Made by a program: the position numbers and the translations under genes. From assembly GCA_025210615.1 (NCBI GenBank), contig JAOARJ010000013.1, positions 102,001 to 166,000 of the forward strand: DNA of 64,000 nt. The letters are read 5' to 3'. Below the pieces are notes generated by a model, which did not search any database, had not been told where the DNA came from, and saw only the letters and a list, made by a program, of their open reading frames with translations. This DNA comes from Candidatus Altimarinota bacterium (GTDB lineage Bacteria; Patescibacteriota; Gracilibacteria; BD1-5; UBA6164). Positions 57,712-60,466 of this stretch are shown piece after piece; within the stretch, counting starts at the first letter, position 1; each line of letters begins with the position of its first letter.

Positions 57712-57891
57712 ATGGCTAAAGGAAAAAGAACATATGTATGAATGATGTCAGTTGAATCAGGATTACAATGTTATGTAACTAACATTCAAAAAAGAAATTT
57801 TGAAAGTGGTAAAAAACTTGAGCTTAGAAAATATGATAAAAAATTAAGAAAACATGTTTTACTAAAAGCTAAAGAAATTAAAAAAGGATAA
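57712..57891 (+). CDS. rpmG: Ribosomal protein bL33
   Basis: 59 aa. VESGLQCYVTNIQKRNFESG, then KLELRKYDKKLRKHVLLK matches bL33 (T..KN...P.KLELKKYCP..). Gly in YVGMM is TGA. Cys ligands of the zinc form are absent except one. Confidence 0.85.
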
Positions 57892-57937: not shown

Positions 57938-58275
57938 CAAAAAACTCCTCTAACGAGGGTACGTTAGTAGGAGCAGTCTCTCTACTGGTTTATCCACATC
58001 TGCTAGCGGACTTTAATATTTATATAGTGCAGGCAGGGGATTAAACTTACTTAGTAGGGATTAGGGTGTAAATGTTACAAGTTCGAACTCTTAAGGGGAG
58101 AGTTTTGAAAAATTCATTTCTCCAGGAATTTTTTTATTTATTTTTTGTTTTGTCGAGCTTTTTTAAATCTTTAATTCTTAGTTTAAAAACTTAAAGAAGC
58201 TCGACGATTTCTGTTATTTTTTTGTTTTTGTTTTTTCTCAGTAACAGTAAGAACATATTTAATGTGCGATTTACA
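57938..58275 (-). ncRNA. Structured RNA, copy 1 of a tandem pair
   Basis: No ORF. Compared with copy 2 (58624-58985), paired positions change together: GTCGAGC/GCTCGAC here versus GTAGAGC/GCTCTAC; GGAGA/TCTCC versus GGTGA/TCACC; CTAACG/CGTTAG versus a changed stem around the same loop AGGGTA. Identical single-stranded blocks include TTATCCACATCTG, CAGGGGATTAA and GTTCGAAC. The minus strand is chosen because a -10 (TATAAT, 58286-58281, after GC, with TGGAAA 17 bp upstream) sits at one end and a hairpin plus TTTTTT (CTCCT...AGGAG, then T at 57944-57939) at the other. Class unknown to me; raiA-type or another ornate RNA should be tested. Confidence 0.65.
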
Positions 58276-58498
58276 TAAATATTATAGCGTACTTTTTTAA
58301 GTCTTTCCAGTATTATAGCTTGACAGATTTATATATTATTTTATTAAAAATATTTTTTAGTTGAATATTGTCTATATTAAGCCATTTAATTTTATTATAT
58401 AAAAATACTAATAATTTTTTTGAAAAATATTTTATGTATAATTATTTTATACAAAAATTATAAAAAGTAGCTATTTATAAGGAAAAATATGTTTTATG

Positions 58499-58596
58499 CG
58501 GAGCTTAATTTTATTAAGCTCCGAGAGGCGTTTTATTTTTCGATTATTATAAAAGAGAATAAAACGCCTCAGTGGCGCGCCCGGAGGGCGCGCCAC
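58499..58596. repeat. Three consecutive perfect hairpins
   Basis: CGGAGCTTAAT/ATTAAGCTCCG (58499-58523, 11 bp, 3-nt loop); GAGGCGTTTTATT/AATAAAACGCCTC (58525-58570, 13 bp, 20-nt loop); GTGGCGCGCCC/GGGCGCGCCAC (58572-58596, 11 bp, GGA loop). The third is nearly pure G+C in a ~25-30% GC neighbourhood. No T tract follows, so these are not typical terminators. Function unknown; a processing, attachment or DNA-structure site is possible. Confidence 0.85.
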
Positions 58597-58623
58597 ATTA
58601 CACAATTAATAAAAATTAAGACA

Positions 58624-58985
58624 AAAAAATACTCCTACTTGCGAGGGTACGCTAAGCTAGGAGCTAGTTTTCCTTAGTATTCTTATCCACATCTGAGAGC
58701 GAGCTTTAATTATATAGTGCTAACAGGGGATTAAGTTATTATACTAGAAAGAGGGGTAAATTTTTCCCGTTCGAACTTTTATAGGGTGAGTTTTTGAATA
58801 TTCATTTCACCAGGAATATTTTGTTTTTAATTTTTGGTAGAGCTTTTTCAAATCTTCAAAATTTTATTTAAAAATTTAAAGAAGCTCTACTTATTATTTA
58901 TTTTTATTTTTTTTGTTTATTTTCTGTTTTTGTTTTTTGTTGTCTATAACAGTAAGAACAATTTTTAAGGAGCGATTTACAAAAA
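58624..58985 (-). ncRNA. Structured RNA, copy 2 of a tandem pair
   Basis: Same order of conserved blocks as copy 1 with diverged stems that keep pairing. Minus-strand -10 TATACT (58993-58988, again after GC) and terminator hairpin (CTCCTA...TAGGAG then a TATTTTTTT run ending near 58624). A further stem (CTGTT/AACAG) near the 5' end is shared, with different loops. The perfect DnaA-box-like TTATCCACA appears in both copies inside the conserved region, so here it is probably an RNA element. Confidence 0.65.
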
Positions 58986-59231
58986 CAAGTATAGCAAATC
59001 TTCATTTTATGGCTAGTTTTTATCTCTTGACGATTTAGTATTTAATTATTATAATAATTAAATTTTTATTTTATAAAAAATATTTTAGTTGATTAATAAA
59101 GGAATATGTTATTAAAATAAGTTTTTAACAAAAAGTTAACAATTTAAAATTTTATTTAGTTATATTTCGTATAAAAAAATTATACATTAGTGATTATTAT
59201 ATTAAAAATTTTTATTATTTTTTCTCATTTT

Positions 59232-59299: not shown

Positions 59300-60466
59300 A
59301 TGTGAATTGAAAATTGAGTTTCAGGAGGGGAACTTTCTACTGAGAAAAAAGAGGTAAATATTTTTTTAAATCCAGAAGATTTTTTAAATCGTATTGATGC
59401 ACTAGATTTATCTCAAGAAATTAGTCCAGTTTATTTGCTTGAGGAGGATCTTGATGATAATGAAAGAAGGATAATTACAGAATCTGATGTCGAAAAAGAA
59501 ATTGATACCAAAAAATCTTTCTTAGATAATGTTGATATTAGATTATTACAAAAAGAATTTAATTTAATTTCAGCAGAACAAAATAATTTGGATAAATTAT
59601 TAGCGGATTATATTAAATTAAATAAAAATGATCCAACATTTGTTATTAATAATATTAACAAACAAAATTATATAAAAGCTTTAAAGGAAAGAATGAAGGA
59701 AGCTTTACTTAATAAGATTGCTCTAATTTTATCAAAATGGGTTTCTTGATGAGAAAATATTTATGAAAATGAGAATTGAAATTTATTTGTTAGATATACT
59801 TGAGAATTAGGAACAGGCTATTGAATGTTATTAACTAGAGAGCAATTTGAGTTTTTTAAAAACTTTTGAATTAATGAATTTTATATTATTAATGCTATAG
59901 CTCGTTTAAAAAATTGAAAAACTATTCAATGATCTTTACCAAAATTTAATGAAACAGGAGAATATTCTCTTGGAATGACCTATATAAAAACATTGATTAA
60001 TAAAATTGATTTGTCAGAACATTTTAGGGTTAATCATTTAGCTTATAAGCTTGTAGATGAGGAAGAAAAAGTTGATTTGGTTGCTACAGCTAGTTCTTAT
60101 AAATTAGATAATAATTCAAACGAAGTTAAAATTTTATTATGAGAAATAGAAAAAATTGTAACTCAATTTAAATGATCTGAACTAGAATTATCAGCGATTA
60201 GAGGGCAAATAAAACAATCTATATTAGATAAATTTTCTAATTATTGAGCTAGTATGGTTGATCGTTTTTATAAATACATGAAAATTATTGAAGATGAGAA
60301 TAATAATCCACATTTATTTTTAAGGTTTTCAAAGTCTCCGAGTGAGCATTTAATGGGGCCAGATAAATTTGAATTTTTAGCTAAATTCTGAATTTCACAA
60401 TCTGAAATTTTTAATGCTATAAAACAAAAATCAAAAATTATAGCAGATGAAATAAAAAAAGACTAA
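59300..60466 (+). CDS. Hypothetical 388-aa protein from a consensus promoter
   Basis: MGIENGVSGGELSTEKKEVN at the start; soluble, acidic, helical; dense TGA-Gly codons (about 20). No recognised domain. Shares a promoter and terminator type with the gene at 55109. The promoter conservation suggests co-regulation or recent duplication of the upstream region. Confidence 0.7.

Follow-up and report, generated by a model that had tools for sequence, protein, structure and literature searches.

Two tandem minus-strand genes in the 64,000-nucleotide window (the whole stretch of DNA analysed here) very probably encode paralogous members of a real, stand-alone family of structured RNAs that would act in trans, most likely as a scaffold or regulator. 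The RNA family comprises at least eight sequences from four genera of one bacterial family of the Gracilibacteria. None of these sequences matches Rfam 15, and open-access text searches found no paper on the RNA, which therefore appears, as far as these two sources reach, to be new to the catalogue and unpublished.

Two paralogous genes in the window

The first copy (C1) lies at 57939..58280 and measures about 342 nt, counted from the -10 box through the T-run of the terminator; the second (C2) spans 58623..58987 (about 365 nt). Both are on the minus strand. They are 74% identical from end to end, with their sequence blocks in one order that is also common to six homologues elsewhere, and lie between rpmG (57712-57891; Pfam Ribosomal_L33) and an ORF without a Pfam match (59300-60466). 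A whole-genome search found no third copy in the 1,249,814 bases. TGA encodes glycine in this organism, since table 25 is needed to read rpmG, dut and other ORFs without interruption; under this code no ORF covers either copy, and the only frame that touches them is a 62-aa one on the plus strand, running from a dispersed repeat to the end of copy 2. The initial annotation had described two ORF-free regions with the same order of blocks and had proposed paralogous structured RNAs, a proposal borne out by the identity, the shared blocks and the covariation described below. The compensatory changes that it named are present as well: from C1 to C2, GTCGAGC/GCTCGAC becomes GTAGAGC/GCTCTAC in a long hairpin and GGAGA/TCTCC becomes GGTGA/TCACC in the second stem of a pseudoknot, and to these can be added a change in the core, where UUUA/UAAA is replaced by CUUA/UAAG, and one in a long-range helix, where UCC/GGA takes the place of ACA/UGU.

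Both copies have folding energies far below those of shuffled sequences (z about -5). Because the opposite strand of the region folds equally stably, the strand is not given by energy; the minus-strand assignment, as originally made for both copies, is based on promoters, terminators, G-U wobbles and homologues. Each copy is preceded by a promoter-like sequence of its own, again as first proposed, with sigma-70-like -10 boxes: TGGAAA-17-TATAAT for copy 1 (-10 box TATAAT, 58281..58286, minus) and TAGCCA-16-TATACT for copy 2 (-10 box TATACT with TG before it, 58988..58993, minus). The -10 can be aligned in all eight members. Further upstream lies a GTCAAG element (58319..58324 in copy 1 and 59026..59031 in copy 2, both minus); in these copies, and in 7 of 8 members overall, exactly 33 nt separate the end of GTCAA from the -10 hexamer. 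Across the genome GTCAA occurs at this spacing in 8 cases, C1 and C2 included, against 2-9 at other spacings, which is no enrichment, and it is not evident in the stretches read upstream of tmRNA and RNase P. In three of the relatives (G034, G149 and G297; L123/L126/L128) GTCAA falls inside a perfect palindrome, ATATTGTCAATAT or ATTATTGTCAATAAT, a possible binding site for a dimeric regulator, and the fixed spacing taken together with the palindromes suggests a dedicated regulator.

Several other features were noted around the two genes. On the plus strand, a strong promoter-like site, TTGACG-17-TATAAT (59026-59055, 11/12 match), overlaps the copy 2 GTCAA element with its -35 and probably drives the ORF at 59300, whose 388-aa product (table 25) has a seeming internal repeat, FFKNFGINEFYIINAI / FLAKFGISQSEIFNAI. 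Between the copies, at 58489-58600, three near-perfect hairpins stand in a row, the last of them GC-rich (GTGGCGCGCCC/GGGCGCGCCAC) in a genome of 25% GC; such sets recur at seven other genome sites without the RNA, several of them flanked by ATAAGGAA...TTCCTTAT, and are a dispersed MITE- or REP-like repeat. An Rfam match to RsaF (E 0.04) falls on this GC-rich repeat, outside the RNA, and was discarded. Within the pseudoknot of both copies, an eight-codon ORF follows a Shine-Dalgarno-like GGWGA (58097-58123 and 58785-58820, minus), reading MNFSKLSP in C1 and MNIQKLTL in C2 before the stop; the relatives do not share it but have GAATAG there, without ATG. Being confined to C1 and C2, it was rejected as a tmRNA tag frame.

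Relatives in three further genera

Blastn across the class returned short matches only, mostly to low-complexity A-rich parts, and BLAST finds no homologue outside the window's genome; C1 and C2 likewise had no blastn match among phages and plasmids. The relatives were found with covariance models. A model of the 3' part of C1 and C2 (R1) identified, in 48 genomes of the bacterial family, one clear relative (G279, E 2e-4), together with weak matches (L071-L076, of which L076 lies in G276 but at a different place from the member confirmed there later). A core model from C1, C2 and G279 (R2), run on whole genomes, found G034 (E 8e-5) and G149 and G297 (E 0.003-0.004), the remaining three genomes of G279's genus, all with full-length homologues carrying the same pseudoknot. 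A six-sequence model (R3) then gave G276 from a third genus (E 0.0015) and G234 from a fourth (E 0.039). By E-value alone neither stands out among the R3 matches; what led to their acceptance was the sequence upstream, which R3 does not cover and in which the pseudoknot, the A-rich linker and other elements are present. R3 matches in G244, G216, G085, G214, G028, G106 and G209 were judged to be chance, driven by the terminator. When core patterns were searched in genome contigs, only the already known G279 stood clearly apart in its model score; matches in viral contigs were read as chance, and the pattern GGTGAATA was too unspecific across the order.

The eight members, six of which are near kin (a pair and a foursome), measure 342, 365, 465, 481, 479, 482, 513 and 549 nt, the six relatives thus spanning 465-549 nt. 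Two copies are present in the window's genus only, with one certain member in each other genome, and the RNA was found in all four sampled genomes of G279's genus. Of the roughly 20 genera in the bacterial family just 4 yielded a certain member, which reflects either fast divergence or a patchy distribution with real absence.

Gene neighbourhoods were read by eye outside the window, Pfam being applied to three window proteins. The flanking genes are those for dUTPase (dut) and L33 (rpmG) in the window, a lipoprotein and a secretion ATPase in G279, an unknown membrane protein in G034, G149 and G297, an NlpC-like protein and a DNA ligase-like gene in G276, and an RND efflux protein and GroEL in G234; in a synteny comparison of 30 loci, no RNA adjoined rpmG outside the window's genome. 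The RNA always stands alone, and the gene behind its terminator is convergent wherever it was read. Since the flanks differ between genera and the downstream gene is convergent, we take the RNA to be neither a leader nor part of an operon and to act in trans; a riboswitch or cis leader was rejected on the same arrangement of an own terminator followed by a convergent gene.

Conserved elements of the fold

The helices covary across genera, which bears out the covariation first described from the two copies, and this holds for the core with the terminator, for the pseudoknot and for a long-range helix. In copy 1 the 5' strand of the latter, UGUAAAU..ACA..GUUC (58247..58275, minus), pairs with GAACUUGUAACAUUUACA (58067..58084, minus); in copy 2 the 3' strand GAACGGGAAAAAUUUACC (58755..58772, minus) pairs with 58952-58981. 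This pairing of UGUAAAU..ACA..GUUC with GAAC..UGU..AUUUACA, based on two sequences, has the place and topology of helix P2 in the relatives, where it closes the pseudoknot domain with 92/98 cells paired and 5 two-sided changes (slid controls 50-62). An unaided pairwise score for the helix is significant in some members only, the aligned count being the better test. The initial annotation had seen in GTTCGAAC a possible T-loop, which is not supported: GTTCGAAC occurs in C1 and C2 only and is missing from all six relatives, its GAAC half can pair with the 5' GUUC, and a conserved GUUCGAAY T-arm of the tmRNA or tRNA-like kind was not found across the RNA family. More likely, GTTCGAAC forms one strand of the long-range helix.

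Enclosed by this helix is an H-type pseudoknot, AAAAAUUC-CU-GGAGA-AAU-GAAUUUUU...UCUCC in copy 1 (58097..58133, minus) and AAUAUUC-CU-GGUGA-AAU-GAAUAUU...UCACC in copy 2 (58785..58820, minus). Its geometry is nearly fixed: a first stem (S1) of 4-8 bp, a 2-nt loop, GGWGA, a 3-nt loop, S1', an A-rich loop of 6-9 nt and the complement of GGWGA, with 4/5 pairs in the second stem of G234. A pseudoknot scan restricted to GGNGA-type second stems recovered 7/8 members at L1=2, L2=3. In a hand-made alignment of seven distinct sequences, 68/70 cells are paired and 5/10 pairs show two-sided change, and the pairing was reached by 0/5000 shuffles. Of the GGAGA/TCTCC stem originally described, the pairing and the compensatory change are real; it is not a simple hairpin, however, but stem 2 of this pseudoknot.

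Between the 5' strand of the long-range helix and the pseudoknot lies an A-rich linker (AAAAAACAAAAACAAAAAAA in copy 1, 58217..58236, minus), in which all members have AAAAAYAAAAAC or a near variant of it, followed by a long AT-rich hairpin (GUCGAGC...GCUCGAC at 58152..58205 in copy 1 and GUAGAGC...GCUCUAC at 58837..58890 in copy 2, both minus). All relatives have a long hairpin here, its sequence unrelated between genera and its pairing always kept. Nearer the 3' end is the core hairpin on which models R1-R3 draw, GUUUAAUCCCCUG...CAGAUGUGGAUAAAC in copy 1 (57988..58046, minus) and CUUAAUCCCCUG...CAGAUGUGGAUAAG in copy 2 (58682..58735, minus), with the consensus UYC-C-CUG...CAG-AWGU-GRA in most members and covarying flanks. 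The RNA ends in a terminator hairpin with loop UACCCU and a T-run (57938..57973 in copy 1 and 58623..58663 in copy 2, both minus). That each copy has its own terminator, as initially stated, is supported by a terminator scan for copy 1; the hairpin and T-run of copy 2, which the scan does not list, are visible in the sequence. For core and terminator together, 9/20 pairs show two-sided change and 86.7% of cells are paired, a level reached in 0/500 shuffles (slid controls 28-45%).

In the six relatives, but not in C1 and C2, which lack the hairpins concerned, two hairpin loops make a covarying loop-loop contact, AAUCC/GGAUU in one genus and AACC/GGUU in two others (29/30 cells paired in a hand-made alignment). 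A further candidate contact, GGUA/UACC, was dropped as unconserved.

At L083:5036-5055, immediately after the RNA of G279, lies CTTTCAGGGGGATA, a near-complement of that RNA's core strand UAUCCCCUGAAAG, which may be either chance or a local antisense site. The 16S 3' end was not found in the MAG.

Proposed role and comparison with known RNAs

Because the fold is kept while sequence, position and neighbours change, selection acts on the RNA itself, and since diverged versions of the same fold occur at unrelated places in genomes, the RNA itself is probably the working, freely acting cell component. We envisage that the promoter in front of each copy drives its transcription, perhaps with the help of a factor at the GTCAA element, and that the central domain folds into a compact globule made of the closing helix, the pseudoknot and A-rich linkers docking on helices, from which the long variable hairpin would protrude as an arm. 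The conserved single-stranded parts, namely the core internal loop C/AWGU and the terminator loop UACC, could then form a surface for binding a protein or an RNA, and the molecule would serve as a scaffold or regulator in trans. We rate a ribonucleoprotein scaffold or a regulator as likelier than the alternatives of an RNA-only assembly, antisense pairing or a replacement of 6S RNA.

Self-assembly into RNA-only multimers, in the manner of the large 'ornate' RNAs GOLLD, ROOL and OLE, is unlikely, although some elements of the fold would suit it. RNAs of the ornate kind characteristically have kissing loops, pseudoknots and A-minor contacts (PMC12286853). Since covariation is blind to whether a contact is intra- or intermolecular, the loop-loop contact of the six relatives could join molecules, as could GUUCGAAC, which is self-complementary in C1 and C2. 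However, the RNA is shorter than GOLLD, GUUCGAAC is not conserved outside the window, no phage or plasmid is matched by blastn and no tRNA island adjoins in the window.

We give a similarly small chance to antisense regulation, in which C-rich single strands of this small RNA would pair with mRNAs. UACC is present in the terminator loop of 8/8 members and there are further UCCC stretches, yet many covarying long-range contacts exceed the needs of a simple base-pairing RNA. Improbable, too, is a global regulator that binds RNA polymerase in place of 6S RNA, with the long AT-rich hairpin, found in every member of this stand-alone gene family, mimicking a promoter. The 6S model RF00013 has no match in the genome, but this absence is weak because the same model is positive in only 5/14 well-known genomes used as a control; moreover, nothing resembling the 6S bubble can be made out, the hairpin has almost no unpaired positions, and conservation falls on other parts of the RNA. 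Least credible of all is the non-coding RNA of a mobile element (a retron, an OMEGA/tracr-like RNA or a type III antitoxin) or a transposon remnant: the copies are tandem with a dispersed hairpin repeat between them, and type III antitoxin RNAs also form pseudoknots, but no reverse transcriptase, nuclease or toxin gene was recognised beside the members (mostly by eye), all sampled genomes of one genus have the RNA, and the repeat occurs elsewhere without it.

A trans-acting scaffold or regulator thus remains the preferred reading. Stand-alone RNA families with several covarying long-range contacts are often important machines or global regulators. More tentatively, and with the balance of probability somewhat against it, the RNA might belong to a class of large structured bacterial RNAs that is entirely new. 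It would then be part of the core cell equipment throughout this lineage of reduced bacteria that read TGA as glycine, working as an assembly of RNA alone or of RNA and protein in a role that no known RNA fills. The source organisms have not been cultured, their genomes are reduced and use a reassigned stop codon, and their non-coding RNA is little known; the eight sequences, covariance pairs and coordinates provide a basis for extending the family, for probing and for a search for partners.

Against Rfam 15, C1 and C2 have no match at gathering thresholds and none that is credible at relaxed ones; cmscan gave no match to raiA, ROOL, GOLLD, OLE or HEARO, with E-value cut-offs of 5 for C1 and C2 and of 1 for the six relatives. 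This accords with the original remark that the RNA could not be placed by eye in tmRNA, RNase P, SRP or 6S. With tmRNA it shares length, pseudoknots and a terminator, whereas neither RF00023 nor ARAGORN gave a call at the locus, the genome's true tmRNA lies at C4:227096, and the new RNA shows no tRNA-like ends and no conserved reading frame. Length and a long-range helix are likewise shared with RNase P RNA, of which the genome has a separate copy, the single match to RF00010 (C4:166254). Like 6S RNA it is a stand-alone gene with a long helix, but the 6S bubble architecture is not recognisable. ToxI-type antitoxin RNAs have a similar small H-type pseudoknot with an A-rich loop, whereas here one unrepeated pseudoknot is set in a much larger fold, and no adjacent toxin gene (ToxN-like) was recognised among flanking ORFs read mostly by eye. 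The raiA motif RNA is also a stand-alone structured bacterial RNA of unknown role; it differs in that 0/8 members match Rfam and the flanks have no recognised raiA gene. Unlike ROOL, GOLLD and OLE, the new RNA is chromosomal, with different elements and no phage or tRNA-island context seen; like them, it is a stand-alone bacterial RNA with pseudoknots and kissing loops, in a group whose function is mostly unknown.
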